43,701 nucleotides of DNA from a virus. Location of the stretch: IMG/VR virus record IMGVR_UViG_3300042507_002412, positions 1-43,701 of that record, one strand, 5' to 3'. How positions within the stretch are numbered: the stretch's first letter is position 1; every line of letters begins with the position of its first letter. The position numbers were made by a program, and so were the translations under genes. The notes below the pieces were generated by a model. That model ran no database searches. It was not told the origin of the DNA and saw nothing but the letters and a program-made list of their open reading frames with translations. Of this stretch, positions 5,073-41,400 are shown one piece after another.

Positions 5073-8000
5073 TTATCTTCTTACTTTCTTAACAGGTGCT
5101 TTAGCGGATGCTTTCTTTACAGGCTTTTTAGTTGCTGCTTTCTTAACCGGTGCTTTAGCTTGAGTCTTTGTTTTTGGTTTTTTAGTAGCTGTTTTTGGTA
5201 CAGGTCTTTCAATTGGTTGTTTAGCACTTTCTAAATATTTTTTTCTAAACAATCTAACTTTAGGATGATTAGGATATATTTTATCTAAATCCTGAAGTCT
5301 TGCTCCTATTTCCACCATTGTTTTTTCATCCAAAGAATCTAAATCTTCTTCAAAATCATTAGTTATATCACCCAACATAGAAAGTACAACGATTGATTTA
5401 TCTTCATCAGACCAAGGTGTATTTGGATTTCCCTGCGAATCAACACCAGTACCATTATAATCAGTATGTCCATATTTGTAAGATATACCACCGAATGTAT
5501 TTTGTGACATCTCAAATGTAGGAGCGTTACCAAATCCTCTAGTTCTAATCTTAGCTTCAAATAATGGAAGTTGAGATGGTTTACCATCCGGACCATTAAC
5601 ATTGATTGCCACAGACATTACTCCTTTTTTTCTACTAATAACTATTTTACTATCAATCGTATCTTCAATTTGCTTTCTTATTTCTGCTTTTTTAGCAGGG
5701 TCTGTTTCAGATTGATATTTAGCATATAAATCATCTACTCCAAACAATTTAGATAATTCCTCTTTTTTCATTTCAATAGCTGGGTTAGTACCATATACTA
5801 CTTTCAATTCATCTAAATTAGGATTATCCGCAAATAGGATATCGGTAATATGAGTTTCATCTCTTACCAATTTTTTAACCACCGTTTGGTTTTCCGGTTT
5901 ATCAAAATCATCTGCTATTGAATCTGTCATTTCTCTATCAAGAGCTCTCATTTTACCATAGGCTGATTTCAAATATGAATTGGTTGATGTTTTACACATA
6001 TCACCAATAACTTTCATAGCATCTCCACTTAAAGGTCTTGCACTCATTACATTTTGTATAAAATTATCACATTTAACTTTTGATAAATCATTAGCTTTAG
6101 TTAATTTTAATATATCAGCTACTCTACTTTTAACTGTAGCCGGCTTACTACTCAATCTATCCGGATTCTTTTTTAAATTATCAAAATCTTTACAAAATTC
6201 ATCTTTATTAGTTTGTGCAAAATTTGAAACTTCATATAATTCTTCGTTTCTTCTTTTTTCATAATGAGATGCTTTAGATGATTCACCTAAAACAAATCCT
6301 TTTTCTTGCATTGTACCTTCTAGCTTTTTCCACCCACCACTAAATATGAATACCTTTAAATCTTTTTTAAGAGATATACCCAATCTTTTACCATTTGGAT
6401 ATTCCTTATCAGGTTTCATTTTTATAAACATATCAGCAGATGTACCATGTCCTTGTGAGCCTACTAAAGCTCTACCTTCTTGGTTATCCCATCCAATTTC
6501 TTCAATATTATGGAATCCAATTTCTTTATGAATTAAATCAATTGTATTCATAGCTGAGTCTATCCACTCTTTTGTTAAGAATGAATCAGAGCCTAAATAA
6601 GTTTCTAAATGTTTTCTAGTAATTTCTCTTGAAGCTTGATAACATTTATTTACATCTTTTGTTTTAACCATACACTTATCAAAAGCGTTCTTTAACACAA
6701 GAGTACCTTTAACTACGGCAGATTCACCTGCTCTACTTTCAGGACTACCCAATCCAACTCCTTTTGATTCAACAGATGGTTTCTTTTCAGTAAACTTTTG
6801 TCCTTTAGCTTTAGCTTTAGCTTTTCTTTTTTCCCAAGCATCTATTTTCTTTAACAAATCTAATTTTGCTTTTTTCTCTTGCTTCTCAATATCTGATTTG
6901 GTTAAACTTAATGAATCAGTTACAGACTTATCTGTAAATGCTCTCATTGCTTGTCTTTCTTTCTCAGTTTTAGGGGAATCAATTTCTTGTCTACCCGATT
7001 CTTTTTCAGCGGTATCTGCTGCTGATGTAGCTTGGTTTTGGTCTTTAGGTTCAATTACATTTACAGTAACACTCTTACCACTTGGAGTTGTTTTATTTAT
7101 AGTTTTTTCAAACAATAAATGTATCCATTTTTCATTACCCTCTAATAAAAATCCATTTACTATACTTTCAGTTCTTACATATTGTGCAGGTCCATCTGGA
7201 GTATCTGAATAATAATTACCACCAATAGGATATATTACTCCACCCGGCTTTTCATCTGCAGGTTCTGGTTCAGGTAATTTTTCTGATGGGTTTTCTTTTT
7301 TACCATTTATAATATCATCAACTAAATCAGCATGTCCATCACCTGCAACTACAACTGGTATCTTTCCATCGGAAGATATTTCGTTTTGTTTTTTTATAAT
7401 GTTTAAATCTCTTGCTCTATTAAATGCAACCTGAACATCATTAACCTGTGTTTCAGTATCACCATTATCGTCTGGGAATGATAATCTATACAATGTATCT
7501 TTATCTTGCTCCGTTGGAGTATTCCAATTTTCTATTGGAGGAAATCCAGCTTCTTTAGCTGCATCTTGTAAGAATTGTTTTCCTTCCTCATCTAAAAATT
7601 TAGATGGACTCATTGTATCAGTACCTTCACCCTGTCCAATCATACTAGCCCAATTACCAGCTTTGATTTTAGTTTGTGAAAGGCCAGTTTGTTCTTCTTG
7701 TGACTTATATAAATTTGATTCCGGAGTGTGTACATCTAATTCATCACCATCCCAAGTATCTATTTTTGCTCCTAATTTTTTAAATTCTTCTGATGCATGT
7801 ATTTGCTCATCATTGAATTGTAATTCACCACCATCACCAGTTCTACCACCTTCACCTACAAATACTATATCTTTCCATCTTTCTTTTGGTATAGTTGCTT
7901 TAACTTGATTAACAATATCATCTATTGCTTTTTCGTTTCTATGTGGTACTCCATAAAGTTGGCCACCATTATCAAATTCAATTGTTTTTACATCAATACC

Positions 8001-9422
8001 CGATGATTCACCTTTAAATGTTTTGATATTTGATTCAGGATTATCATTGTATGGTTTTAATTCTGCAGCCATTGGTTGAGTTGTCTCAGGCTTATTAGCA
8101 TCTGCTTTTTTAGCCGCAATACCCATATCTTCTGCAAACTTATTCGCCATTGGTATTACATCCTTAATATCACTATCAATTACATTAACCTTCATTTGTA
8201 TTTGAGAATCAGGATTTGCTGCGTTATATGCTGCTATTGCTGCCCAACGATGATGACCATCTACTACATATCCATCTCTACTTACATAAATTGGTGCCGT
8301 AATTTCTGGATTCTTTGGGTCTTTTTCTAATGCTCCCAACATACCAACTACTTTAGCTCCAACTAATTCATTTTGAGTTGCTTTTAATTTATCAGCAGGT
8401 ATTTCAGTTTGAGTAACCTTAATACCTTTTTGATTTAACATTTCTTTAAATACCGGCTCAGTATCAACTTCACCATCTTTATTAACCGGCATATCTGCTG
8501 CTCTACTACCAGCAATTGCTTTACCTTTGAATTGTGGCATTTCCTCTCTTGGAATTCCTAAGTTATCATCACAATATAAGTTTGTACCCGGTACAGTTAT
8601 TTGACAAAGATTAATGTTTGGTATTTTTTCACCATTAGCTTTTGCATCATCAACTATTTTTTTAACTTTTTGAATATCAGTATTAAATTTAGCTAAATCA
8701 CCAGAATCTATTCCATCTGGTATATCAGAACCTCCACCAAAAACATTCGGGTCAGCTTGTGGCATTTCCTTTGCTACATCCTGAGCCTCTATTGGATTAA
8801 ATTTAGCATCTAATGGATTTGTTTCATCTTCGGCTTTTTTATCTGCCGCCGCATCTTCCTTATCAGCCTTTGCTAATTTAGCACTTGCTGCTTTTTCTCT
8901 ATCTAATCTAGCAGCCATAGCTGGGTCCACTTCAGGATCGAACATTGCAGCTGCCTGTTTCATTTTATCTTCTTCACCTCCCGCTTGAGGAGCTTCATCT
9001 TCTTTACCACTTGGTTTTTGACCTGCTAACTCTCCACTTCTACCATCTTTCTCACTTCCCAAATCCTGCATTGCTGCATCTTTTGCATCTGCATCTGCTG
9101 GTAATAATTTCTCAGCTGCTATTCTACCGGGATGGTCTTTTGGCAATCTTAAAAGGTTACCAACAATACCTTCGGCATCTTCACCTTTGGCATTTTTATA
9201 TTTAATTGATTTATTAAGAATTGGATTAGTAAATTGTTTACCATCAGCTTCAGTAAGAGTTTGTATTAATTCATCTTTAATATCGTTCAATCCCATTTCG
9301 GAAAGAACTGATGATAGCTCATTAATATGCTTTGGGTTATTTGGATTTGGCTGGCCATCATCTACTCTATATGCCCATTCTACCAATATCTCATTAATTA
9401 ATTCAGATAAATTCATATTCAT
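5073..9422 (-). CDS. Giant multidomain polyvalent-type protein, probably virion-associated
   Basis: A 1449-aa protein with several recognisable parts. (1) An N-terminus MNMNLSELINEILVEWAYRV, with possible Leu/Ile-x-Glu protease sites (INE, LVE), followed by an acidic Ala-rich region to about 240. (2) A ParB-like domain around 370-430 with ISRDGYVVDGHHRWAAI-like sequence (VVDGHHRWAA). (3) A segment at about 470-705 starting DIVFVGEGGRTGDGG and ending VVVAGDGHADLV, resembling the TraB/ChaN/erythromycin-esterase type (weak). (4) A Lys/Glu-rich linker at about 780-890. (5) A nuclease-like domain at about 960-1060 with GHGTSADMFIKM and RLGISLKKD, fitting a PD-(D/E)xK pattern. (6) A C-terminal Lys/Ala/Pro tail like histone H1. 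Such mixtures occur in phage polyvalent proteins that enter the host with the DNA. The start may also be the ATG at 9416. The gene overlaps the nuclease stop codon (TAATG). Confidence 0.7.
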   Translation of the reverse strand: MNMNLSELINEILVEWAYRVDDGQPNPNNPKHINELSSVLSEMGLNDIKDELIQTLTEADGKQFTNPILNKSIKYKNAKGEDAEGIVGNLLRLPKDHPGRIAAEKLLPADADAKDAAMQDLGSEKDGRSGELAGQKPSGKEDEAPQAGGEEDKMKQAAAMFDPEVDPAMAARLDREKAASAKLAKADKEDAAADKKAEDETNPLDAKFNPIEAQDVAKEMPQADPNVFGGGSDIPDGIDSGDLAKFNTDIQKVKKIVDDAKANGEKIPNINLCQITVPGTNLYCDDNLGIPREEMPQFKGKAIAGSRAADMPVNKDGEVDTEPVFKEMLNQKGIKVTQTEIPADKLKATQNELVGAKVVGMLGALEKDPKNPEITAPIYVSRDGYVVDGHHRWAAIAAYNAANPDSQIQMKVNVIDSDIKDVIPMANKFAEDMGIAAKKADANKPETTQPMAAELKPYNDNPESNIKTFKGESSGIDVKTIEFDNGGQLYGVPHRNEKAIDDIVNQVKATIPKERWKDIVFVGEGGRTGDGGELQFNDEQIHASEEFKKLGAKIDTWDGDELDVHTPESNLYKSQEEQTGLSQTKIKAGNWASMIGQGEGTDTMSPSKFLDEEGKQFLQDAAKEAGFPPIENWNTPTEQDKDTLYRLSFPDDNGDTETQVNDVQVAFNRARDLNIIKKQNEISSDGKIPVVVAGDGHADLVDDIINGKKENPSEKLPEPEPADEKPGGVIYPIGGNYYSDTPDGPAQYVRTESIVNGFLLEGNEKWIHLLFEKTINKTTPSGKSVTVNVIEPKDQNQATSAADTAEKESGRQEIDSPKTEKERQAMRAFTDKSVTDSLSLTKSDIEKQEKKAKLDLLKKIDAWEKRKAKAKAKGQKFTEKKPSVESKGVGLGSPESRAGESAVVKGTLVLKNAFDKCMVKTKDVNKCYQASREITRKHLETYLGSDSFLTKEWIDSAMNTIDLIHKEIGFHNIEEIGWDNQEGRALVGSQGHGTSADMFIKMKPDKEYPNGKRLGISLKKDLKVFIFSGGWKKLEGTMQEKGFVLGESSKASHYEKRRNEELYEVSNFAQTNKDEFCKDFDNLKKNPDRLSSKPATVKSRVADILKLTKANDLSKVKCDNFIQNVMSARPLSGDAMKVIGDMCKTSTNSYLKSAYGKMRALDREMTDSIADDFDKPENQTVVKKLVRDETHITDILFADNPNLDELKVVYGTNPAIEMKKEELSKLFGVDDLYAKYQSETDPAKKAEIRKQIEDTIDSKIVISRKKGVMSVAINVNGPDGKPSQLPLFEAKIRTRGFGNAPTFEMSQNTFGGISYKYGHTDYNGTGVDSQGNPNTPWSDEDKSIVVLSMLGDITNDFEEDLDSLDEKTMVEIGARLQDLDKIYPNHPKVRLFRKKYLESAKQPIERPVPKTATKKPKTKTQAKAPVKKAATKKPVKKASAKAPVKKVRR

Positions 9423-16880: not shown

Positions 16881-19295
16881 TTATAATCCTAATGTATTTC
16901 TTGTATTTTTAGATTGAACTGACATTAAACCTGAATTTAATTTCTTACCGTCTATACTTGCGTACGCTTGGATACCTCCTGTTTTCAAATCGTTTCTCAT
17001 TGCTCGTATTTCATTAATAAGAGCAAAGTTTGTTTGTTGTGATGTTTTTTGGTTTGATAAAGAACTTGCATTTTCAGAACCACCTCCGAATAAATTTGTT
17101 CCAGCTACAACTCCATTTTTATTTCCAACAAATGTATCTTCAGAATTTAATCTTACAGTTCCTTTTGGAGTACTTACAACATTTCCTTCTTTATCAATTT
17201 CACCATCATCTATACTAATACCATTTAAAAAAGAACTACCAGCAATAACCAAAGCAGCTCCACCAAATACATTACCACTTAATGCCATCATAGCTCCACC
17301 TGCTATTAACGCAACCGTAGCTATTCCTTTTAATACTTTGAAAAAACCTCTACCAAATTCAGTTGCTCCAAATAAAGATTTAGATACTCCACTTAACACA
17401 TTTCCTATTTTTCCAAATGTAGTTGCAATTCCATTAATAAGCATCGCAAATGGTTCTAAAGCCATTACCATAGCTTGTATAAGTGGAAGTACTGCAGTTC
17501 CAATTACCATACCAATTCCTTTGAATGAATTTATAATTTTTGTTAATTGTCCTTGCATTTCTTGCTCTGTCTTTAATTTACTTATTGCTAATTGTAAATC
17601 TTCTTTACTTGCATTAGTAATATCTAATCCATTTTCTATTGCTTGAAGTGCTAATGCCTTTTCATCATCACCCAAATGCGCTAATTTTTCTCGTTGGTGA
17701 ATTAATTTTTGGATAACCGCAGGTGTACTAGCTACTGTTTTTGCTAATTCTTTTTGTGTCCAAAGGTCTTTATCGGCAAATCTACCACCTCTTTCCATTT
17801 GGTCTAACACCTCATCCAATGCACCCGAATAATCCTTTGTTGCTGCTAATGCTCTTGCTTGAGTTAAATTAAATTGCCCTTGTGCAAATGCATTAGCTTT
17901 TAACTCCTGCTCTATACTACCTTCAAAATCTAAAAGTTGTTCACTAACTCCCATTACTTCTTTTAAAGTAGTACCAAGTCTTCTAGCCTCAATTGCAGTT
18001 TTGGCCATATTATCAAATCCAGTTCCAAAATATTCAGCACTATCTTTGGCTGCCTCTGCTATATCTTTAAATACTTTAGATGGTGCTACTTTTGCCAATT
18101 TTGCAACGTTTGTTACCTGTATTGCATAATTGGTTGCAGTTTGTTCACTCAATCCAGTCATTGCTTGTAATTGAGCAACAAATTCAGTTGCATCTTCGTT
18201 AGCTATTCCAAAATTAGAATTTAATACCGTTAATGCTCTTACTGTATCTTTTGATATATTAGCTATATCACCAAATTCGTTTTTAAGTTCAGTAATTACA
18301 TTATATACATCTTCAGCTTCTACTCCTAAATGAGCCATTTCTTGAGTAACTTCTGCAGCTTTATCTTTAATATCACCCATTTGAGAATTTAAAATTCCCG
18401 TTTCTTGTCTGAATTTCTTCGCTGCTGCAGATAATTCTGTGAATGCCTTTACACCCAATGCAAAGATTGCCGCGATACCAGCCCAAACAAGTACTACAAG
18501 ACTTGATATTTTAAGAAATGTACTAACACCTTCAATTATAGATTTTAAACCATCTGGTATTACATCATACATTTTTTTCTGCTGTTCTTGTATTTCCCCA
18601 ATTCTTTTTTCTTGTGCTAGAAATGCCTTTCGTTGCTCAAACATATCCATAAAGATTTTTTGAGTGTTTTCATCAAAATCTTTTATAGATTCTTTGAATT
18701 TTAATTCTTCTTTTGCAGCCTCACTCATTCCTTTAGTAGTATCTCTAATATCAAGAGTAGATTCTACTTGTGAAAGAAGAGCTTCTCTTTGCTGTTTTAA
18801 AAGTTCTTTTTCACTAAATAATTTTTGTAATTTATCAGCTGCAGCTGCTCTATCATCGTCTGTAAACTTCTTACCATCTTTTTTAACAAGAAGTATTTTT
18901 GTATTAATTTCTCTTATTCTTGCAGATACACTAGCTATAGCACTATAACCTGTGCTTTCATCATTTAATGCTGCTTTAAGTCTTGTTGATAGTTTTGAAA
19001 ATGATTTTAATTCGTTTTCACTATCTTCTAATATTTCTTTTTTAAATTGAGCCTGCTTTTTTAAAGTCTCTGACCTCTTTTGATTTGTAGATAAAAGTTT
19101 TTCAGTTACTTTGAGTTCTTCCTTTAGTGTTTCTAAACTCTTTTTTTCAGCAGCCATTACTTTTTCAAGACGTTTAGCTTCTTTAGCTTTAGATACAGCT
19201 ATCTTTTCATTTTGCGCATTAATTCGTTTTTCAGCTGCTTCAATCTGCTCTAATAGTTTTAGTCTTTGCTCTTCTTGTTGAGGTATAGTGGCCAT
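16881..19295 (-). CDS. Tail tape measure protein
   Basis: An 804-aa protein that sets tail length by spanning the tube lumen during assembly. The N-terminal 240 residues are highly charged, heptad-like coiled coil (AEKRINAQNEKIAVSKAKEA and similar). A hydrophobic segment covers about 255-285 (FLKISSLVVLVWAGIAAIFA). A long Ala/Lys/Glu helical middle follows, then two more hydrophobic stretches at about 592-622 (GMVIGTAVLPLIQAMVMALE) and 652-687. Such membrane-like helices are typical of tape measure proteins. The position after the tube and tail chaperone genes is the conserved tape measure location. Its C-terminus (SGLMSVQSKNTRNTLGL) may be processed, though no cleavage site is evident. Confidence 0.88.
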   Translation of the reverse strand: MATIPQQEEQRLKLLEQIEAAEKRINAQNEKIAVSKAKEAKRLEKVMAAEKKSLETLKEELKVTEKLLSTNQKRSETLKKQAQFKKEILEDSENELKSFSKLSTRLKAALNDESTGYSAIASVSARIREINTKILLVKKDGKKFTDDDRAAAADKLQKLFSEKELLKQQREALLSQVESTLDIRDTTKGMSEAAKEELKFKESIKDFDENTQKIFMDMFEQRKAFLAQEKRIGEIQEQQKKMYDVIPDGLKSIIEGVSTFLKISSLVVLVWAGIAAIFALGVKAFTELSAAAKKFRQETGILNSQMGDIKDKAAEVTQEMAHLGVEAEDVYNVITELKNEFGDIANISKDTVRALTVLNSNFGIANEDATEFVAQLQAMTGLSEQTATNYAIQVTNVAKLAKVAPSKVFKDIAEAAKDSAEYFGTGFDNMAKTAIEARRLGTTLKEVMGVSEQLLDFEGSIEQELKANAFAQGQFNLTQARALAATKDYSGALDEVLDQMERGGRFADKDLWTQKELAKTVASTPAVIQKLIHQREKLAHLGDDEKALALQAIENGLDITNASKEDLQLAISKLKTEQEMQGQLTKIINSFKGIGMVIGTAVLPLIQAMVMALEPFAMLINGIATTFGKIGNVLSGVSKSLFGATEFGRGFFKVLKGIATVALIAGGAMMALSGNVFGGAALVIAGSSFLNGISIDDGEIDKEGNVVSTPKGTVRLNSEDTFVGNKNGVVAGTNLFGGGSENASSLSNQKTSQQTNFALINEIRAMRNDLKTGGIQAYASIDGKKLNSGLMSVQSKNTRNTLGL

Positions 19296-19310: not shown

Positions 19311-19544
19311 TTATGGTACTAATCCTACACTTTTAAGTGCTTCGTATTCTTTAGGATTTTCCTTTTTCATTTTTTCAAATTTGGGAATAGACTGTCTTGT
19401 TATAGAATCAATCTTATCTCTTAATTTTTGTAGCTCAGGATCATCATCAATCAATTGTTGAATTTGCTTAGGCGGGTCTTTTTTTGAAAACCAACCAAAA
19501 AACTCCGTTAAATTTGATTTTTTTATTTTATACTTCTTTGCCAT
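19311..19544 (-). CDS. Small 77-aa protein between tail chaperone and tape measure
   Basis: Not recognised as a named family. It is basic at the start (MAKKYKIKKSNLTEFFGWFS) and then mostly helical and charged (DPELQKLRDKIDSITRQSIP). It lies 15 nt before the tape measure gene and starts the long operon that runs to 11833. A late motif (19570-19578) lies 26 nt upstream. A role in tape measure or tail assembly is plausible from position alone. Confidence 0.72.
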   Translation of the reverse strand: MAKKYKIKKSNLTEFFGWFSKKDPPKQIQQLIDDDPELQKLRDKIDSITRQSIPKFEKMKKENPKEYEALKSVGLVP

Positions 19545-19587: not shown

Positions 19588-19622
19588 AAAAAAGTTAGGA
19601 CTATCTATTAATCCTAACTTTT
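19588..19622 (-). terminator. Rho-independent terminator after the tail chaperone frameshift gene
   Basis: A perfect 11-bp stem (AAAAGTTAGGA 19590-19600 with TCCTAACTTTT 19612-19622, + strand), an 11-nt loop and a T-tract on the minus strand. The 5' arm overlaps the last codons of the +1 frame, whose TAG stop (19601-19603) falls in the loop. This supports the view that the reading frame really ends here. Confidence 0.85.
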
Positions 19623-19807
19623 GATTGCTTATTTTGTTGTTCTATAGCTTCGTTTTCCTTTTTCTTAGCATTTACTAATTGTTGGTAGTAAAACATTCTA
19701 AGATAGGTTGGCATTCTATACAAATCCATTATTGTGAACCCATTACCATAGTTTACCATCTCAAAAATTTGAGTATGGAGTTGAATACTATGATTCGGAG
19801 CTAGGCC
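19601..19807 (-). CDS. Frameshift extension of the gp26-like protein (tail assembly chaperone T-like part)
   Basis: A 68-codon frame, +1 relative to the gp26-like gene, that has no good start of its own. It reads GLAPNHSIQLHTQIFEMVNY, then GNGFTIMDLYRMPTYLRMFY YQQ in shorter pieces, and ends KQSKVRINR. This helical pattern with a conserved MP-x-YLR-x-FYY block is like the second part of phage tail chaperone pairs. The frame is closed by TAG at 19817-19819, immediately upstream of a run of seven T (19808-19814), and the zero frame stops at 19788. The only place to enter the frame from upstream is therefore the slippery run. A +1 (or -2) shift after GGG-TTT-TTT gives a 315-aa fusion. The alternative is independent initiation at the ATG at 19759, which would give 52 aa with a weak ribosome site. 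Confidence 0.65.
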   Translation of the reverse strand, partial: GLAPNHSIQLHTQIFEMVNYGNGFTIMDLYRMPTYLRMFYYQQLVNAKKKENEAIEQQNKQSKVRINR

Positions 19808-20549
19808 AAAAAAACCCTACGCCCATTACTATGGGCAGTACCTCCTCTTGTCCGTCTTCATGTGTATATGTGATTCTCATATCCATGTCCGGCTGAATTG
19901 TTTTAATGTAATCTCTAAATGCTCTACTATCTTTTGCTAAAAATCCATTTATAAATTTATTAATAGCTGCTACACTATTATCACCATCTACGGCTTTAAT
20001 TATATGTCTAAATCTAGTAGTAATATCATGTGAAGTATCTTTATTAACCTTTTCTAATGCGGTAATATCTTTATCGATAGCCTTTTCATCACCATGAGTT
20101 AATAATTTAAATGTTAATTTATTTTTACTAGTTGGAGTAATAAATTCAAATTCATTTTTATTTTCAAATTTGGATATATCTACTTTTTTTGTTTCAATTT
20201 TTGATAAATCCACATCAATATTTATAACATCTCCTTTTAGAGAAGAATATGCAGATGCTTGATAAGTAGGCCCATATCCTAATAATCTTGTTGCTAATAT
20301 AATAGCGTTTTTATCTCCAATAAGAATATCATCTATATTAACATTATCAACAATAACCGATTCAAATAACTTATCTAACACAATACCTTTTTTGATAAGG
20401 TTTTGTGAAGAAAGGATATCTTCCTCCTTTGCAGTCATGTGCTTAATTGTTATTTGACCAGATGATAATGGATGGTCTTTTGGATATAATTTACCTTCCG
20501 ATGGTAAACTGATAACTTCCGTTGGAAAATCATATTGTTTTTCGTTCAT
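19788..20549 (-). CDS. gp26-like baseplate/tail assembly protein (T4_baseplate family)
   Basis: A 253-aa protein. The opening YDFPTEVISLPSEGKLYPKD and the following ITIKHMTAKEEDILSSQNLI are characteristic of the T4 gp26-type family (PF12322), whose members start with FPTEVIxLPSxGxLYP. Central KLTFKLLTHGDEKAIDKDI and FRDYIKTIQPDMDMRITYTH complete the pattern. In T4, gp26 belongs to the hub assembly group. Its place between tube and tape measure genes is where other tailed phages keep their tail assembly chaperone pair. The zero frame ends GFFWPSSES only six codons after a T7 run, and an overlapping +1 frame continues (see 19601-19807). A late motif lies 27 nt upstream. Confidence 0.85.
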   Translation of the reverse strand: MNEKQYDFPTEVISLPSEGKLYPKDHPLSSGQITIKHMTAKEEDILSSQNLIKKGIVLDKLFESVIVDNVNIDDILIGDKNAIILATRLLGYGPTYQASAYSSLKGDVINIDVDLSKIETKKVDISKFENKNEFEFITPTSKNKLTFKLLTHGDEKAIDKDITALEKVNKDTSHDITTRFRHIIKAVDGDNSVAAINKFINGFLAKDSRAFRDYIKTIQPDMDMRITYTHEDGQEEVLPIVMGVGFFWPSSES

Positions 20550-20657: not shown

Positions 20658-21146
20658 TTAGAATTCTAATACAGCGTAATCATATGCTATTTGCAATTCG
20701 ATTTGTGCTGGGTCATTAGATGTCATATCTAATTCACCAAAGTTTACTTGCAATGGAAATGCTCCATATAAAGTCCAAGTTTCAACTACATCACCAACAG
20801 GTCCTAACATTTCAATTTTGATAGTCTTTTTATAGAATTCAGAATATCCCTTTCTACCAGTGATTGATTCATGTCCTAAACGAACCCACTCCATAACTTG
20901 CTGTGCACCTGATGGTACAATTGGGTCATAAAGTGTAAGTGTGATATCTTGCCACTCACCTTTACCTTGTAACTTTCTTTTCACGTTAATGTGGTCTAAA
21001 GTTACAACTTCAAAGTTGATTTGAGGTCTATTACCTGCCTTTACCAAATATGCATCAATCCCATCTATACTCATTTTAAAACGAGCTTTGGTTTTCGGTT
21101 CCCAGGTTTTGTAGAACATATCGTTGTATTCTAATACTGTTGCCAT
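20658..21146 (-). CDS. 19: Tail tube protein (gp19-like)
   Basis: A 162-aa protein that polymerises as hexameric rings into the inner tail tube. It is marked by KAGNRPQINFEVVTLDHINV, a typical beta-strand block of T4 gp19 (163 aa), and by the C-terminal ELDMTSNDPAQIELQIAYDY. The length agrees almost exactly with T4 gp19. The ATG is preceded by AAAAGGAAAAGAAA, a reasonable ribosome site, and a late motif lies 25 nt upstream. A strong terminator follows, so it forms a single-gene transcription unit, as expected for a very abundant product. The sheath gene is immediately upstream. Confidence 0.94.
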   Translation of the reverse strand: MATVLEYNDMFYKTWEPKTKARFKMSIDGIDAYLVKAGNRPQINFEVVTLDHINVKRKLQGKGEWQDITLTLYDPIVPSGAQQVMEWVRLGHESITGRKGYSEFYKKTIKIEMLGPVGDVVETWTLYGAFPLQVNFGELDMTSNDPAQIELQIAYDYAVLEF

Positions 21147-21198: not shown

Positions 21199-23547
21199 TT
21201 ATGCTGAGAAAGATGCTCCTGTTGGTAAGATGTTGAAATCAATTACTATGAATTCAGCTGTCTTAGCCGGTTGTAAGAACACTTGTCCTGCTAATATGTT
21301 TCTATCGATTACATCAGGTGTATTGTTTGTTTCATCCATTACTACTTTGAATGCGTACAAACCTTGTCTTTGTTGTATGCTCTCTAAGTAAGGATTAACA
21401 GTGTTCAAGAATCTTTGTCTTGTCTCAGTAGTATTTTGTTCAAATACTAAGAAACGAGATGTAGATGCTATAAACTTCTTCATTGTGATAAGTAATCTTC
21501 TTACGTTGATTCTATCTAATGCTGATGCTCTATCTTGCAATGTTTTTTGTCCGAATGCTACAATACCTTGTCCAGGGAATGCTGCGATTGGATTTACTTT
21601 GTTCTCATATAGAGTATCTCTTTCAGCATGTGTTAATCTATCTAATACTGAAACTGCTCCAGTAATACCACCTCTATTCAAACCAGCAGGTGCGAACCAT
21701 TCAGCTGCTAATCTATCGTTTGCAGCGAATACAGCCGGCATCAATACTGATGGTGGTACAGTTATTAATTTATTTGTGTTAGTATCAATTGTTTTAACCC
21801 AAGGATAGTAAGTTGCTGCGTAGTTTGTATCAACCGCGTTAGCTGCTTCAGTTACACCTGTTATAGTTGCGTTATAATCAACAAAATCAGCTATATAAAA
21901 ACAATCTTGTCTATCTTCACAAATATCAATACCTTTAGTAACAATAGATGGATGTAAACTTCTTACAATACCAGGAGTTACTAACATATTAATATCATAC
22001 TCATCAGGATTTGAAATTGCGTTTAATGCTTTATTGTAAGCTACCGAACCAGATGTTGCTGATGTTGAACAATTGAATCCCTGAGTGTTACCCGGACCCC
22101 AATCTGCATCTCCAGGTTTTGCTACAGTTAATGTTGGGTTTAAACCATCAAATCCATATTGGAAACCTAATACAAATTGTCTCTTAACCATATCAGTTGC
22201 TGATGAACCTGTAATTTGATATGTTAATCCTATACCACTTATATTACCATCAAATCCAAAATCAAGATTTGAACCAGTTTGTGCTCCAACAGGAATTGGT
22301 TTTAAGAACTGAGCGTTATCACCAGATATACCTTCACTTTCAAAATCCATACCAGCATAATATACTGGAGATGATGAAGTGTTACCTGCTGAGTTTGTTT
22401 GATAAACTACAGATGGTAATCTTAATGCTTGTGCATTATTAGTTGCTTCAATTGGGTTTGTATAAGCCCCATGTCCAAATGGTGCTGCTGATATTGGGTA
22501 TGAACCAGGTCCAGCCAAATCAGTAGTATTTTGAACTTCAACTCTTATATATTTTGATTGATTTGAATAATTACCAAATTCAGTAATTTTTCCAGTATCA
22601 CCAATTGTAAAATATCTATCACCTATTCTTCTAGCAATATAATTTGCTGAATTAGGGTCTAAGTTTACATTTTGGAATGATTCCAAAACAGTCTTTCTTT
22701 TATCCGTATCACTATATGAACGAATCGTTACAGTAAATGTAGAATAATCAGTAGAAGCATCTTCACCAGCTGCTTTTACATTTGAAATACCAACTTTAAA
22801 TTTAGTATTGTATCCTGTACCATGTCCTTTGGTTACGAACTTAAATAGATTATATCTTGTACCATCTACTAATTGAGATTTAACCACTGGAGTTTCAGCT
22901 GCTGATGCATCAAATGCAAAGTCCTGAGTTGGTAATGTTTCAACGCTCATTATAGTACCGTTAGATGGATTACTAAATGATGATGATGCAAAATACTCAA
23001 AGTATGTATATGCATATGCGGTTTTACTACCAAAAGTAGATTCACCAAATACATCAGAAATATCGTTTGTATTTTTTGGTAATATAGATGATGATATCCA
23101 ACCAAATGAAGATGATAATAAGAATGAACCAGAGTTAGCTGCTGTATTATTACTAGCAATAACTGCAGATGGGAAACCTACTTTCTCATCACCAGTTTTA
23201 GTTGAATGTAATGTTGCAACTAATCTAGCTGCACCAGCTCCGTTGGATGCAAATATACCCAATGGTTCAATTTGTTGATATCCACCGATTCCACCAACCC
23301 TTACGATTGTTGCTGTACCAGCTTCTCTTAAATAGTTTTGTACTGCATATTCAGTATAATAAGTTCCATCAGGTTTTCCGAACATTTCTTCAAACTCTGA
23401 TTGACTTCTCACAATTGTTGGTACAAAAACAGGCCCTTCTTTGAAAGGTCCTATAAATGCTGCTCCAATTTCACCTACTCCTTGCGCTAAGAAGGATAGG
23501 TCATTTTCTCTTGTGAATACGCCGGGTGATACGATTCTTTCTGCCAT
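21199..23547 (-). CDS. 18: Contractile tail sheath protein (gp18-like)
   Basis: A 782-aa protein that forms the contractile outer sheath. It starts MAERIVSPGVFTRENDLSFL, continues with GEIGAAFIGPFKEGPVFVPT, and has the conserved C-terminal subtilisin-fold end (VNPYLESIQQRQGLYAFKVV, then AGQVFLQPAKTAEFIVIDFN). It is longer than T4 gp18 (659 aa); the extra length lies in the variable middle (about 130-450), which faces outward in known sheaths. A ribosome site GGAG lies before the ATG. A late motif sits 60 nt upstream, giving an unusually long leader that contains one arm of a 14-nt inverted repeat. Confidence 0.95.
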   Translation of the reverse strand: MAERIVSPGVFTRENDLSFLAQGVGEIGAAFIGPFKEGPVFVPTIVRSQSEFEEMFGKPDGTYYTEYAVQNYLREAGTATIVRVGGIGGYQQIEPLGIFASNGAGAARLVATLHSTKTGDEKVGFPSAVIASNNTAANSGSFLLSSSFGWISSSILPKNTNDISDVFGESTFGSKTAYAYTYFEYFASSSFSNPSNGTIMSVETLPTQDFAFDASAAETPVVKSQLVDGTRYNLFKFVTKGHGTGYNTKFKVGISNVKAAGEDASTDYSTFTVTIRSYSDTDKRKTVLESFQNVNLDPNSANYIARRIGDRYFTIGDTGKITEFGNYSNQSKYIRVEVQNTTDLAGPGSYPISAAPFGHGAYTNPIEATNNAQALRLPSVVYQTNSAGNTSSSPVYYAGMDFESEGISGDNAQFLKPIPVGAQTGSNLDFGFDGNISGIGLTYQITGSSATDMVKRQFVLGFQYGFDGLNPTLTVAKPGDADWGPGNTQGFNCSTSATSGSVAYNKALNAISNPDEYDINMLVTPGIVRSLHPSIVTKGIDICEDRQDCFYIADFVDYNATITGVTEAANAVDTNYAATYYPWVKTIDTNTNKLITVPPSVLMPAVFAANDRLAAEWFAPAGLNRGGITGAVSVLDRLTHAERDTLYENKVNPIAAFPGQGIVAFGQKTLQDRASALDRINVRRLLITMKKFIASTSRFLVFEQNTTETRQRFLNTVNPYLESIQQRQGLYAFKVVMDETNNTPDVIDRNILAGQVFLQPAKTAEFIVIDFNILPTGASFSA

Positions 23548-32403: not shown

Positions 32404-35400
32404 TTAACTTAAATTTTTAGCGCTTACAAATCCATAATAGGTTGTCCCTGCATCATAAGTATAGAATACTAAAACATCTACACCAGTATTTGTTAATAGT
32501 GGAAATTCAATTCCACCCGGCCATTGGATATTTGCTGGCCAGTTTAATGTATATGCTCCTGCATTTACAGTAAGTATTGTAAATCCAAATGCGTTTGATG
32601 CAGGAGGATTAGTGAATGTTATTGTTGCATTTGCATTAAATTGTCTTCTAAAGTTATTAGCCGTTGATAGGTCTAAATTAACACTACCACCAGTTCCTAA
32701 ATTATTAAATGTTTCTCTAAATGTTGTTGAAGTTATATGTGTAGTTGCTGTTACTGCTCCTGTTACATTTACATCCCCAGTTTGAGTTGTATTTCCTACA
32801 ATTGTTAAAGTAGAACCATTAAATGTAATATTAGCTTCTACGTTTGCTCCAACAGTTGCTACATCATATGTTAGTAAACCATTATCAGTATTTCCATTTA
32901 CAGGGAATTGAGATGTACCCGATGTACCAGATGTCATACCAGGAGGAGTTGTGCCAGATGTTCCAGCTAATCCAGATGTACCACTACTACCAAATAAAGT
33001 TCCATCTTGTCCAGATGTTCCCGAAGTCATACCCGGAGGTGTTGTACCAGAAGTTCCACTATTCCCAGATGTACCACTACTACCAAATAAAGTTCCATCT
33101 TGTCCAGATGTTCCCGAAGTCATACCAGGAGGAGTTACACCCGATGTACCAGACGTACCAGCAATACCAGTACCAGATGTACCAGATGTACCACTACTAC
33201 CAAACATTGTACCATTTACTCCAGAAGTTCCGGATGAACCCGTTGTACCAGATGTACCGCTTACTCCAGATGAACCACTTACACCGCTTGTACCAGACGT
33301 TCCAGATACACCACTCGTACCACTACTACCAAAGTATGTACCATCTAAACCAGACGAACCAGTTGTACCAGAAGAACCTGTTGTTCCAGATGAACCGCTT
33401 ACACCAGATGTTCCGGAAGTTCCAGATGTTCCCGATGAACCAGACGTTCCACTACTACCAAAGAAAGTTCCATTAACCCCAGAGGTTCCCGAAGTACCAG
33501 ACGAACCACCACTACCAGAAGTACCAGAAGAACCACCACTACCAGCTGTACCGGTTGAACCAGATGTTCCAGACGTTCCGGATGTACCAGAAGTACCACT
33601 ACTTCCAAAGAATGTACCATCCAATCCAGATGTACCAGATGACCCAGATGAACCAGATGAACCAGCACTACCAGCAGAACCATCAGTACCAGAAGTTCCA
33701 GATGTTCCACTTTCTCCGCTCGTACCACTACTTCCAAAGAATGTACCATCTAAGCCAGATGTTCCAGAAGTTCCCGATGTACCACTTGAACCAGAAGTTC
33801 CCGATGTACCAGATGTTCCCGATGTACCACTACTACCAAATAAAGTTCCGTCTAAACCAGATGTTCCCGATGTACCAGCAGACCCATTAGTACCAGATAC
33901 ACCCGATGTACCAGCAGAACCAGAAGTTCCACTTTCTCCGCTTGTACCACTACTACCAAATAAAGTTCCATCTAAACCAGATGTACCACTTGTGCCAGAT
34001 GAACCAGATGTACCACTTGTACCAGATGAACCAGATGTTCCCGATGTACCGGATGTTCCACTACTACCATTGAATGTTCCATCAACACCAGATGTTCCCG
34101 ATGTACCACTACTACCAGATGTTCCAGACGAGCCAGATATACCAGAAGTTCCCGATGAACCAGAAGTTCCCGATGAACCAAAATATGTACCATCTAAACC
34201 AGACGTACCAGATGTTCCAGACGTTCCAGATGAACCAGCTGAACCATTAGAGCCAGATGTTCCAGAAGTTCCAGACGTTCCTGATAATCCAGAAGTTCCA
34301 CTACTACCATTAAACGTACCATCTTTACCAGAAGTACCACTTGTACCACTTGTACCAGATGTACCAGACGTTCCAGATGTTCCAGACGTTCCCGATGTAC
34401 CAGATGAACCAAAATATGTACCATCTAAACCAGATGTACCGCTTGTACCAGAAGTTCCAGAAGAACCCGCCGAACCAGACGAACCAGCAGAGCCCGATGA
34501 ACCAGCTGAACCAGAAGTACCAGACGTTCCATTTGTTCCAGACGTACCGGATGAACCAGATGTTCCCGATGTACCAGCTGAACCATCAGTACCAGAACTT
34601 CCACTTGTGCCAGATGTTCCATCAGTTCCAGACGTTCCAGATGAACCATTAGTTCCCGATGTTCCAGACGAACCAGATGAACCAGATGAACCCGTAGTAC
34701 CAGCTGAACCATCAGTACCAGAAGTTCCAGAAGAACCTGCCGAACCAGATGTTCCATCAGTTCCAGACGTTCCTGATGTACCACTACTACCAGATGTTCC
34801 AGACGAACCCGTAGTACCAGCTGAACCATCAGTACCAGATGTTCCAGACGAACCAGACGTTCCAGATGTACCATCCGTTCCACTTGTCCCACTACTTCCA
34901 GAAGTTCCCGATGAACCAGTTGTACCAGCAGAACCGGTAGAACCAGATGTTCCGGATGTACCAGAAGAACCAGAAGAACCATTTGTACCAGACGTTCCAG
35001 AAGAACCAGAAGTTCCAGATGAGCCAGTAGAACCACTCGTACCAGATGTTCCAGATGAACCAGCTGAACCAGATGTTCCAGATGAACCCGAAGTTCCATC
35101 TATACCAGACGTACCAGAAGAACCAGCTGAACCAGTTGAACCAGATGTTCCCGAAGTTCCACTACTACCAGATGTACCATCTTTTCCAGAAGTACCAGAA
35201 GTACCAGAAGTTCCCGATGTACCAGATTGACCATCAGAGCCAGATGTTCCGGATGAACCAGACGTTCCAGACGTTCCAGAAGTTCCAGATGAACCAGAAG
35301 TTCCAGACGAACCACCACTACCACCAGTACCAGTAGTACCACCAGAACCACTTGAACCAGAAGAACCTGCCGAGCCACCACTACCAGCCGAACCAGCCGA

Positions 35401-38400
35401 ACCAGACGTTCCCGATGTTCCACTACTACCAGATGTTCCCGATGTTCCAGATGAACCAGATGAACCCGTAGAACCAGATGAACCAGATGACCCAGCCGAA
35501 CCAGAAGTTCCTGATGAACCAGATGTACCAGATGAACCTGATGTACCAGATGAACCAGATGTTCCCGATGTTCCACTACTACCAGATGTTCCAGAAGTTC
35601 CTGATGAGCCCGATGTACCACTACTACCAGATGTTCCAGACGAACCAGTTGACCCAGATGTTCCAGATGTTCCAGACGAACCAGATGTACCAGAAGAACC
35701 AGAAGTTCCCGATGAACCAGAACTTCCAGATGTTCCAGACGAACCAGAAGTTCCACTACTACCAGATGTTCCAGAAGAACCGGATGTGCCAGATGAACCA
35801 GATGTACCAGATGAACCTGATGTGCCAGATGAACCAGATGTTCCTGATGTTCCACTACTACCAGATGTACCAGATGAACCAGACGTTCCAGATGTCCCAT
35901 CAAAACCAGATGTTCCGCTACTTCCAGATGAGCCAGCTGAACCAGACGTTCCAGATGTTCCACTACTTCCTGATGAACCAGATGAACCAGTTGTACCACT
36001 ACTACCACCTGTACCAGATGAACCCACTGCTGCTGCTATATTTCGTCTTTCTAATCTTTTTGTTACATTATTCCAAACTACAACTTCTTCCGATGAACCT
36101 GTTGGTAAATTATTTAATTGTACTGAACTATTTGCTACAACCGGTCCAGTTAAAAAACTACTACCAGTAACACCCAAGCTACCACTAATTGTAAGTGATG
36201 CGTTTATTGTTTGGTTTGTATTAATTTGTAAGAATGATGATGTATCAGATGATGGAGTATTTAATGCAAATAATGCATAAGATGCAGTTCTTGCAAAGGT
36301 TATACTATCCATTCCCAAAGGCCCATCAACATCAGATGATGCAACATACGATGCGGTTAATGATGTTACTCCACCACCTAGTATGGTTACCAATACACCA
36401 TCTGACCCAGATGATATTACATCAACACCAGAACCAGTAAAATGAATTTTTCCTACTTGTGCTTTTACTAATGAACTTGTTTGATATATAAATAATTCAG
36501 TACCACTACCTACACCTGCGTTTAATGCGTATGATGCGGTTAATGCGTAAGAAGAACTTACTGCACTAAACACCGCCATTGATGATGTTTGTGAATTTCT
36601 TACAAAGTTTTGCAAGTCACCTAATGCTGCTAATGATGATGAATCAAATCCAACAAGACTATTAGCTGTACCAGCTACTTGTGCAAATGATGCTGATAAT
36701 ACCGTACCAATTACTCTACCACCTTCTATTGTACCACTAATTAGAGAACCACCACTACCAATTACAGCATGTCCACTTGTCAATCCACTAAATACAATTT
36801 GAATAGTATCATCATCTATTGATTTTATTGTACCTGGTAAAATTTGGTCTTCCGAACCAGTGGCGTAAACCTGTACCATTGGATATCTAATCCCTAAATT
36901 ATGTACAATAGTTAAACTACTTACATTATTAAACGATACAGTTTCAGTTAATGAAGTTTCAGGTTGAGGAATATAATGCCCTCTATTTTCATCAAATCTT
37001 AAAATATCATATTCAGCAGATGCAGTTGGTCCATTTCCTTGATATGTGTATGTACCCAATAAACCACCACTTACTATTGGAGAATATATTTGAGTACTAC
37101 CAGTTATAGTTGTTGCTCTTAAATTATCACCAACATATAAATTACCCCAAATACTAGCCGATGTATTTACTACAAATCCTTTATCAGGAGAAATCGATGC
37201 CGTAAATGAGCCCGATTTCATTATAGATGTTTCAAATGATAAATTAGCAATAGTAATATTATATAATCCACTACCATCACCAACAAATGCAGAACCACTA
37301 CCATTTAATACTATATTTCCACCTGTTACAAATAATCCACCACTAACAGATAATGATGATGATATTCTAGTCTTTGTATTTACTTCCAATCCGTTGTTAG
37401 GAGAAATAACTGCTTCAACAGAACCAGATCTAATTCTATCTAATTGTAAATCTTCCAATGCATTTGCAGGGATATTGAATAATCCACCACCATCACCTAT
37501 GAAAAGAGCTGCTGTTATTGGTACATTAACATTTAATTCCTGCGGGCTTACTATTGCTCTACCAGAACCAGATTGTATTCTATCCAATTCAAGATCTTGT
37601 AATGCTGATGCCGGAATGTTAAATAATCCCCCACCATCTCCGTCATAACGAGATGCAGTGATTGAACCACTAATTAAAGCTGCTCCACTTACTATTAAAC
37701 CAGCAGATGAAGATGGTACAGTTTGACTAATGTTTACATATGAATTTACTAATAATCCAGTATTAGGTGCTACCGATGCCGTTACAGAACCAGATGCGAT
37801 TCTTGGTGCAGCCGCAGCTGCTACATTTGTTAAATTAGAACCATCACCAAAATAAGTAACAGCTTGAATACTTCCACTAACTGAAATAGAACCAGTAAAT
37901 TGAGAACCAATCCCAGAACCAGTTGCTTGTGTTTCTACTCTAAACCCAAAGTTAGGTGATACGGATGCGGTTACACTTCCACTAGCAATTTTAGGAGATG
38001 CTGCAGCTACTACATTTGTAATAAAAGTACCGTCACCAATTAAAAAGTTAGATACAATTAATGAACCACTAATTTCAACAGAACCAGTAAATTCAGAACC
38101 TATTTCAGAACCAGTCTTTGCAGTTGTTACTACAAATCGTTCACCATCTGCTACCGATGCCGTTGCAGAACCACTTGCTATCAATGGAGATGCTGCTGCT
38201 TGTACATTTGTAATAAATCTACCATCACCGAATATAAAATCTTTAACAGTTAGCGAACCACTAATATCAACCGAACCAGTAATTTGGGCCGCTACTTGTG
38301 AACCAGTTCTATCACTTATTACTCTAAATCCATAATCAGGAGAAACAGATGCTGTTACCGATCCTGATTTAATTTCAGTTGAAACTAATGCATCTTCGGT

Positions 38401-41400
38401 TAATGCTGAACGAGGTATATTTCTTAAATAAGTACCATCGGAATATAAGAATGAAGATGATGCAATATAAACACCACCGCTAACATCATTTATAAATAAA
38501 CTTCCACTTACATTAATAGAACCAGTAAATTGAGAAGCAATTTGTGTAGCGAAATATCCGTTTGCATCAATTGAAGATGTAAATGGAGTTGTAACTCTAA
38601 ATCCATAATCAGGTGCCACCGATGCCGTTACCGAACCTGATTTAATTTCTGCTGATATTAATGCATCTTCAGTTAATGCTGCTCTAGGAATTTGTCTTAA
38701 GTAAGTACCAACTGCATATAAGAATGAAGATGAATCAATTCTAATACTTCCACTAAAATCAGAACCGCTATCAAATGATTCTACTCTAAATCCAAAATCA
38801 GGAGATACAGACGCACTTACACTACCACTTGCAATACGGAATACTTCTTCTGATAATGCGGAACGAGGAATATCAAATAATCCTCTACCACTACCACTAA
38901 ACATTGAAGCGGTAACATTTCCTTCAACTTTTGTTTCACCAATTAATTTTATTTCGGCCGGTACATAAAATGCATCTACTACATTAATAGTGCCGGCCAT
39001 TGAACCATGCAATTGACAATTATAATAAAGTGTATCCGGTGCACTTCCTGAAACTAAAAATGTTATAACACCAACATCATCACCATTATTAGTTACCCAT
39101 GTATCATATGAGTTTGCAGTACCTGTGCTATTTGTATCTTTAATCCAAAATGGGTGGCCACTAGCATTTACATTAAATACATATTCTACATTTCTAACTA
39201 AAGTTAAAGTTGGATTTGAACCACTTACTAATCTATTACTTATGTTATATGCACTACTTCCAGCATTAGTAACAGTAAATACAGTATCTATATCAGAATT
39301 AGGCCTTTCTCTTGCTGATGATGATACAATAAGGCTGCCACTAATTGTAGAATATGAATTTACTACAAATCCAGTATTAGGTGCTACCGATGCTGTTACA
39401 GAACCACTAGCTATAAATGTAGAAAGTAATGCATCCGGAGATAACGCAGAACGAGGAATATCTAATAATCCCTTACCACTACCACTAAAGAATGAACCAG
39501 TTGCTACTCGTACATTTCCACCAGTTACAAAAAGAGAACCAGTAAATTGAGAACCACTTGCTAATGATATTACTTTAAATCCTTCTGCTGGTGATACAGA
39601 TGCCGTTACAGATCCTGATTTAATTTCAGTTGCTGTAAGTGCATCATCATTTAATGCAGAACGAGGTATGTTTAATAAACCAGCACCACTTCCACTAAAG
39701 AATGAACCAGTTGCTACTCTAATAAATCCACCAGTTACAAATAGTGAACCAGTAAATTGAGAACCACTTGCCAATGATTCAACTTTAAACCCAGTGCCAG
39801 GGGATACTGATGCAGTTACACTACCACTGGTAATTCTAAATAATTCTTGTGAAAGTGCTGAGAATGGTATATTTGTCAATCCTGCACCACTACCACTAAA
39901 TATTGATGCTGATATTGAACCAGAGAATTTAGATGTTGCCGCAAATACCTCAAATCCTCTATTTGGAGAAATGGATGCTGTTGCAGAACCACTAAATATT
40001 TTTGATGTATCTAAATCCGAAAGAGCTGCTACAGGTATATCAAATAAATCTCTACCACTACCACTAAACGAACCAGACATTAATCTAATGCCGGCATTTG
40101 CAAATATACTTCCAGTAAATCTAGAACCTAATAGAGATGATTTTACATCAAATCCAACGTTAGGTGATACGGATGCTGTTACAGAACCAGATGCAATAAA
40201 TGTTGTTAATAATGCATCCGGAGTTAATGCTGTTCTTGGAATATCAAATAATCTAGCACCACTACCAGAGAAAGAAGAACCAGAACTAATTTCAACACTT
40301 CCAGTTACTCTAATACTTCCAGTAAATTCAGAACCAATTCCAGAAGATTCAACTCTAAATCCTCTTGTTGAGTCTACTGATGCGGTTATCGAACCCGTTG
40401 CTATTCTAGTTGCAATTTGAGGTGGTACAGTTACATTAATTAATCTACTTCCATCTCCCTCAAAGAAAAACGCATTAACACTACCACTAACACTTACACT
40501 TCCCGTAAATTGAGAACCTATTCCAGACCCAGTTGCTGGGGTTTCTACTTTAAATCCAAAATTTGGAGATACCGATGCGGTTACACTACCACTTGATATT
40601 CTTGGTGAATCTCCGGTAAATGCAGAACGAGGTATATTATATAATCCACTTCCATCCCCTTGGATGAATGATGCACTTAATGAACCAGTAAATTCTCTTG
40701 CTCTTACAACATCTCGTACATTTAAACTACCCGTAATAACTTCATCACCATATATAAGAACACCACTATCTCTTTGAACTATTGCATCAACTACATTTAT
40801 AGTACCAGCCATTATTAAATGCAACTGACAGTTATAGTATAACATATTAGGTGCATTACTTGGTACAGTAAACGTTATTACTCCATTATCATCGCCATTA
40901 TTAGTTACGCCAGTGTTGTATGCATTTCCTGTTCCACTACTACTTGTTGTTTTTATCCAAAACGGATGCCCAGTTGCATTTAGATTAAATGTATAAGTAA
41001 TACCTCTTACTAAAGTTAATGTAGGATTGTTACCTTCTGTAGCTCCACTAAAAACATATTGACTAACTCCGCTATTAGTTACATTAAATACAGTTTGTAT
41101 TGATTCGGATGGCAAATATTTTATAGATGCCGATACTATCATACTTCCAGTAAATGTTGAAAATATATTTACTTCCAATCCTCTATTTGGAGAAATTGAT
41201 GCTGTTGCCGAACCGGATTTAATTCTAGTAAGGTCTAAGTCTCTAAGAGCAGAAACAGGTATATCAAATAATCGTTCACCACTTCCAGAGAAAGATGAAC
41301 CAGAAGTTATTTCAATACCCCTAGCCCCACTTACGAAAAGAGAACCAGTAAATTGTGAACCACTTTGAAATGATTGTACTCTAAATCCAAAATCAGGAGA

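Follow-up and report, generated by a model that had tools for sequence, protein, structure and literature searches.

A probable T4-type phage tail assembly chaperone locus with a predicted +1 frameshift at UUU_Y, and relatives whose T part lies in the -1 frame

A virus record of 43,701 bases, referred to here as the window, very likely encodes a T4-type tail assembly chaperone in two forms, a shorter protein, TAC-N, and a 315-aa fusion, TAC-NC, that would be produced by +1 slippage at a UUU_Y site. The ribosomal shift, its +1 direction and its efficiency are predicted from sequence comparison. The comparative evidence for a programmed shift joining a gp26-like protein to a small helical T part, as had been proposed from a sequence-only reading of this DNA, is strong.

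Layout of the probable chaperone locus and its neighbors

The elements of the locus are the following.

19788..20549, minus strand: TAC-N (lambda G-like, gp26-like) frame, 253 aa, with ATG at 20549 and TAG ending at 19788
19808..19814, minus strand: T7 slip site, predicted from the sequence GGG TTT TTT TGG; TTT_Y is present in 71/71 cluster representatives among the matches listed
19788..19808, minus strand: zero-frame tail WPSSES and stop, for non-shifting ribosomes
19601..19807, minus strand: putative T part (TAC-C), +1 frame, 68 codons and TAG; three-helix model, weak phrog_634 match

The sequence-only reading had described the zero-frame end, the T7 run and the 68-codon +1 frame correctly, coordinates included. 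The 3' end of the TAC-N gene reads GTA GGG TTT TTT TGG CCT AGC TCC GAA TCA TAG, with six sense codons after the second TTT. Past the T7 run, the +1 frame is open for 68 codons (19807-19604), ends with a TAG at 19603-19601 and reads GLAPNHSIQLHTQIFEMVNYGNGFTIMDLYRMPTYLRMFYYQQLVNAKKKENEA..., so that the predicted TAC-NC fusion would consist of TAC-N residues 1 to 247 and the T part, 315 aa by codon count. That reading had also drawn attention to a +1-frame TAG directly upstream of the run. Such a stop is indeed present in the window (19819-19817, immediately 5' of the T7 run at 19814-19808), but it is not conserved, and the +1 frame of many relatives opens further upstream.

In the proposed mechanism, most ribosomes would terminate at 19788 and yield TAC-N, the counterpart of lambda G and a member of the gp26 family. 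In a minority, the P-site tRNA-Phe would move one base forward, from UUU to the overlapping UUU (UUC in relatives), beside a UGG codon in the window, and these ribosomes would read on in the +1 frame to yield TAC-NC, the counterpart of GT. By analogy with lambda, the N part would coat the tape-measure protein and the T part would recruit tail tube subunits, and both would depart before the virion is completed.

The genes around the locus were assigned from profile matches, position and length.

21199..23547, minus strand: tail sheath protein gp18 (PF04984, E 2.9e-14; phrog_23, E 2.1e-72)
20658..21146, minus strand: tail tube protein gp19 (PF06841, E 7.1e-12; phrog_4542, E 2.9e-32)
19311..19544, minus strand: small ORF of 77 aa that separates the T part from the tape measure (phrog_23470, of unknown function, E 8.6e-4)
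16881..19295, minus strand: probable tape-measure protein, 804 aa, so called for its size and location (E 8.8e-4 to phrog_4200, tail length tape measure, over a short stretch)

The order in the window is thus sheath, tube, G, T, small ORF and probable tape measure, which is the place of G/GT in lambda. The same order of sheath, tube, G and tape measure is found in Flavobacterium phage immuto, where the T part lies in the gap between G and the tape measure. The immuto counterpart of the probable tape measure carries a tape-measure annotation, the window's own profile support being weak (E 8.8e-4). Elsewhere in the window, a 1,449-aa ORF (5073-9422) has as its sole match at E<=0.001 a phrog of unknown function, and a very large ORF of 3,401 aa occupies 32404-42609.

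TAC-N of the window matches the baseplate hub family phrog_150 (E 3.8e-7) and scores 22.9 bits against PF12322 (T4_baseplate), below the cut-off of 24.5; among the matches listed, 31 of the 43 aligned TAC-N relatives match PF12322 at E<=0.01. The AF2 model of TAC-N (pLDDT 88.4, pTM 0.83) has 57 fold matches at E<=0.001 in BFVD, several of them named baseplate hub subunit. Its top match in the PDB is the HK97 tail assembly chaperone 2ob9, a weak one (Foldseek E 0.49), and the same chain ranks first among 957 chains re-aligned with VIA-align, again weakly (Z 4.8, rmsd 4.0 over 80 residues). Comparison of TAC-N with two gp51 sequences by hhalign gave nothing significant. A chaperone role is predicted from the gene order, the family and the weak match to 2ob9.

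The predicted slip site across related loci

Related loci were collected from IMG/VR with three queries, namely, the window (55 loci), immuto (the best 80 of 599 loci) and Mel-JY01 (the best 80 of 599 loci), and annotated phage records were added; the G proteins of SP-15 and of KVP40 type, used as scan queries, gave 1 and 2 loci. A T profile seeded with 17 +1-frame sequences was then run over all three forward frames. Of 233 records scanned, the copy of the window (L001) was omitted and seven had no G match (L062, L063, L064, L065, L067, L068 and L072), leaving 225 loci. Among the matches listed, 211 of these have a +1-frame T part and 2 a -1-frame one (L066 and L070); in 4 no match falls in the searched range, and in 8 too little sequence follows the stop. 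The four loci without a T match above the cut-off are L053 and L055, in which G and T are split, and L059 and L069, which are too divergent for the profile and are +1 by eye. Removal of two loci with weak G scores (L060 and L071) from the 211 gave a set of 209, which form 71 clusters at 80% and 21 clusters at 60% protein identity among the matches listed.

All 209 loci among the matches listed have, near the end of G, an in-frame TTT whose next base is T or C. In the 71 cluster representatives, it lies within the last 12 codons in every case (71/71), whereas 67 of the 994 remaining 12-codon blocks in these genes contain one, and three to seven sense codons separate the TTT from the zero-frame stop (both among the matches listed). 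Since TTT is a common Phe codon in these G genes (464 TTT and 119 TTC elsewhere in them, among the matches listed), TTT alone is unremarkable; what stands out is its fixed position and the pyrimidine (T or C) after it. Conservation of the T run and the overlap in related phages had been named beforehand as a check, and both TTT_Y (209/209) and the +1 T part (211/225) are conserved among the matches listed.

The sites fall into a few types, all counted in the 209 loci among the matches listed. The most common is TTT TTT TGG CCT (147 loci), and 147 loci share TTTTTTTGGCCT; TTT CTT TGG CCT (36) and TTC TTT TTT CCC (13) follow, and the rarer types are TTT CTA TGG CCT (4), CTT TTT TGG CCT (3), TTT TTT TAC CCT (3) and three singletons. 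In 42 of the 209 loci, the run is interrupted, with TTT CTT or TTT CTA in place of T7, and the same frames are kept. At the immuto type of site, TTT CTT TGG, both TTT_C and CTT_T could be used; at the TTT CTA TGG type, only TTT_C could. Streptococcus phage GXN1 has TTC TTT CGT at this place, with the same two-frame layout. Part of a review describes UUU_Ynn as prone to +1 shifting and gives UCC_UUU_CGU as the minimal cassette of influenza A; UUU_CGU is common to this cassette and the GXN1 site.

The interrupted runs bear on three other explanations of the layout. The first is an assembly or sequencing error at T7, to which homopolymers are prone, with a plain in-frame fusion as the true sequence. 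The interrupted-run relatives need the same shift and keep the frames, 147 of the 209 loci share the window's motif (both among the matches listed), and three separate metagenome records (L002, L003 and L004) are identical to the window here. A T6 or T8 error, which the sequence-only reading had raised against itself, is thereby refuted, and its probability is practically negligible.

A second explanation would place the slip in transcription, with RNA polymerase slippage on the homopolymer making some mRNAs one base short or two bases long and no shift by the ribosome. A run of 7 or 8 T within the last 15 codons, as found in 151 of the 209 loci, would suit it, although seven T are few for slippage of this kind. 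However, the last 15 codons contain no T run longer than 3 in 42 of the 209 loci and a run of only 6 in 16, and the frames are kept (all counts among the matches listed). Transcript slippage was rejected as the shared mechanism on account of the interrupted-run loci that keep the frames, and we regard it as highly improbable.

Finally, the +1 frame could also be reached by a -2 shift as in phage Mu, in which the tRNA-Phe would step backwards by two bases within the T run, adding one residue. This has the precedent of Mu, according to part of PMC5009743, and on T7 the re-pairing of TTT with TTT would be perfect. Among the matches listed, it could occur in 167 of the 209 loci and in 56 of the 71 representatives; Phe re-pairing is impossible in the other 42 loci, with TTT CTT or TTT CTA, and at the TTC TTT CGT site of GXN1. 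By comparison, re-pairing one base forward (TTT to TTT or TTC) is feasible in all 209. The -2 shift was rejected as a mechanism common to all loci, 42 of which do not allow it, and is considered unlikely. Thus, of the "+1 (or -2)" shift first proposed, the +1 option is supported and the -2 option is disfavored.

A conserved RNA structure around the slip site was also considered and is not supported by the folding scores. No structure common to the 71 representatives among the matches listed stood out: their mean folding z-scores around the site were -0.56 and -0.70, within the range of two control windows (-0.46 and -0.80). The window alone folds more stably than its shuffles (z of -1.9 at the site, -2.0 upstream and -1.4 downstream), and this is not conserved.

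The T part and loci with separate genes

The T part forms a coherent domain. Alignment of 39 T parts among the matches listed gave the consensus FFGLTxxYRxxLxxQIHEIVFHGxGGYxxxxVYNMPIWLRxF, in which F1, F2 and L4 are nearly invariant, partly because the zero frame overlaps there. The model of the window's T part consists of three helices (pLDDT 82.9, pTM 0.59). Its match to phrog_634, the "baseplate hub assembly catalyst" (gp51) family, is weak (E 0.0081), and 8 of the 39 relatives among the matches listed match that family at E<=0.5. Comparison with gp51 of T4 and Phi1 by hhalign was not significant (E 0.13, probability 0.4%), the model had no match at E<=0.001 in BFVD by Foldseek, and neither Pfam nor NCBIfam profiles supplied an informative name.

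Straight after the G stop, the +1 frame already changes in the manner of coding sequence. The coding test used 23 chosen close loci, 18 of them distinct. In all 18 distinct relatives, +1 is the sole frame open for 50 codons past the zero-frame stop, and pairwise differences over 40 T part codons of this frame number 1,155, 453 and 2,388 at codon positions 1, 2 and 3. One further locus, L032, was left out of the sample; its T part is broken near the end by an apparent single-base insertion or deletion in A-rich sequence, which may be a sequencing error.

The T part could conceivably be a separate gene, translated from an internal start or by coupling to the G stop, with no fusion. Start codons were counted in 70 of the 71 representatives (L128, which lacks the motif, was omitted). 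Among the matches listed, some possible start precedes the T domain in 45 of the 70, an ATG in 26; loci of the L040 type, for example, have an ATG in FMTEVF. In the window, no ATG occurs in the +1 frame until inside the domain. However, 25 of the 70 lack any ATG, GTG or TTG ahead of the domain, and an ATG with a Shine-Dalgarno-like motif occurs in only 2 of the 70 (again among the matches listed). In the group of the window, moreover, the +1 frame is conserved 5' of its first ATG, and the near-invariant FF and L at the shift site, an invariance that comes partly from the zero frame, would be needless for a free T protein. An internal start was rejected as the conserved route on these start-codon counts (25/70 with none, among the matches listed), and a separate T gene without fusion appears very unlikely. 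The same counts bear out the earlier observation that the helical T part has no good start codon.

Nevertheless, a separate T gene is possible and the fusion is not universal, since three loci, L053, L055 and L070, have such a gene. In L053 and L055, a 192-aa ORF (5769-6344 in each) lies precisely between the G and T parts, and the T part begins with an ATG overlapping the stop codon of that ORF. The inserted ORF matches phrog_314, "homing endonuclease" (E 9.7e-10 and 4.1e-8); it has no family in Pfam or NCBIfam, and its name rests on phrog_314. G and T occur once each in both records, which may be fragments. The overlap region is seemingly present on both sides of the insert. For the inserted ORF of L053, a group I intron was considered and rejected, a search against Rfam at E up to 1 giving one weak, unrelated hit only. 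The two loci would illustrate how, in nature, a fusion made by frameshifting can become a pair of separate genes. In L070 (LR756511, a 595-kb phage record), the ATG of the T part shares bases with the stop codon (TAATGG) that ends an extended G frame, and this phage seems, from its sequence, to use coupled separate genes. A separate, well-initiated downstream gene, which the sequence-only reading had set against its own proposal, is thus seen only as an exception, in these three loci.

Predicted shift direction among T4-type phages

In other relatives, the T part lies in the -1 frame. This was seen by eye in S-RIM8, Melnitz, PhiW-14, a KVP40-like phage, ZPAH1 and Serratia phage 3M. For the cyanophages, all three forward frames were scanned with a T profile built from two -1-frame sequences. 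The pair that Kyanoviridae such as Synechococcus phage S-RIM8 carry, gp26 and "baseplate hub assembly catalyst," resembles the locus in the window in its homologous place, in the FF at the end of G and in its short, helical-looking T part. Unlike in the window, the T part occupies the -1 frame and G ends with NNT TTT TTC, in 80 of 80 loci found with S-RIM8 G (the best 80 of 598). In T4 and Phi1, genes 26 and 51 are separated and lie on opposite strands. T4 gp26 is like the window's TAC-N in belonging to the same tree and in ending with KEFFELL, and T4 differs from the window in its separate genes.

In an unrooted tree of 39 chosen G proteins, from which L053, L055 and L070 are absent, 27 +1 rows are split by a 100/100 branch from 10 -1 rows together with T4 and Phi1. 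The +1 clade consists of environmental phages including the window, immuto, Mel-JY01, RM378, SP-15, LIS04 and GXN1. RM378, 3M and PhiW-14 have long branches and unsure places in the tree; their frames were read directly from the sequence. A reading of moderate probability is that a single deep branch divides the T4-type phages into a clade with +1 shifting at UUU_Y and a cyanophage/KVP40 side with -1 shifting at U_UUU_UUC, at corresponding FF codons, with the separate genes of T4 on the -1 side. The same product architecture would have been kept while the direction of decoding changed, and in two relatives the T part would have been freed by the homing endonuclease-like insertion.

The sequence-only reading had held that frameshifted chaperone pairs are not an accepted feature of T4-type tails. 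A 2022 study by Vladimirov, Gautam and Davidson (Virology 566:9-15) reportedly found frameshifting to be conserved in several groups of T4-like phages and genes 26 and 51 to be those used by T4. The chaperones it addressed, a gp26-type TAC-N with a TAC-C, are like that of the window, and papers that cite it contradict the claim; because the study addressed T4-like chaperones and the citing papers fit, the claim of novelty for T4-type phages falls. On this account, gp26 and gp51 are the same chaperones and not something else at this place. Both are listed as hub assembly chaperones in part of PMC3004832. Part of PMC12846349 describes poly-T -1 signals in TAC-N genes of T4-like phages, and part of PMC10885494 reports that some T4-like phages carry separate short and long genes instead.

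Frameshifts in tail chaperone genes are classical, being -1, -2 or +1 across the tailed phages, and T4 was still an exception in 2016, as set out in part of PMC5009743. According to the same part, lambda G/GT uses a -1 shift, unlike the window, which was likened to lambda on gene order and two-product logic alone; Mu (-2) and the haloarchaeal myovirus HSTV-2 (very likely +1), by description only, reach the chaperone via the +1 frame, as would the window. The chaperone of Vandenendeviridae, described for Pseudomonas phage Adele in part of PMC12846349, resembles the window in the invariant poly-T motif that its TAC-N gene carries at the 3' end, but it shifts by -1, at GTTTTT. The T4-like signals in that part are likewise poly-T with a -1 shift, whereas the T part of the window is in the +1 frame. 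A literature search over listings and text passages, with the text of the 2022 Virology paper outside its scope, found no report of a +1 shift in T4-type chaperones. The +1 direction in a large clade and the single deep +1/-1 split may be new.

No joined CDS is present at the chaperone locus in the feature tables of the annotated phage records examined, and in these records the T part is either absent or a short separate CDS. For example, it is annotated as a separate 36-aa "hypothetical" in immuto (L057, 6854-6964), as a short separate hypothetical protein in Mel-JY01 (L058, 5755-5991) and as a separate "baseplate hub assembly catalyst" in S-RIM8; such annotation would be corrected by the fusion. 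The slip-site variants (TTT TTT TGG, TTT CTT TGG, TTT CTA TGG, TTC TTT TTT CCC and TTC TTT CGT) would offer material on the slipperiness of UUU_Y in bacteria. The logic of G/GT would be extended to a large environmental group of T4-type phages, with decoding by +1 in place of -1. The two sides of the split would provide a natural comparison, a like fusion arising on each through shifts in opposite directions at matching codons.
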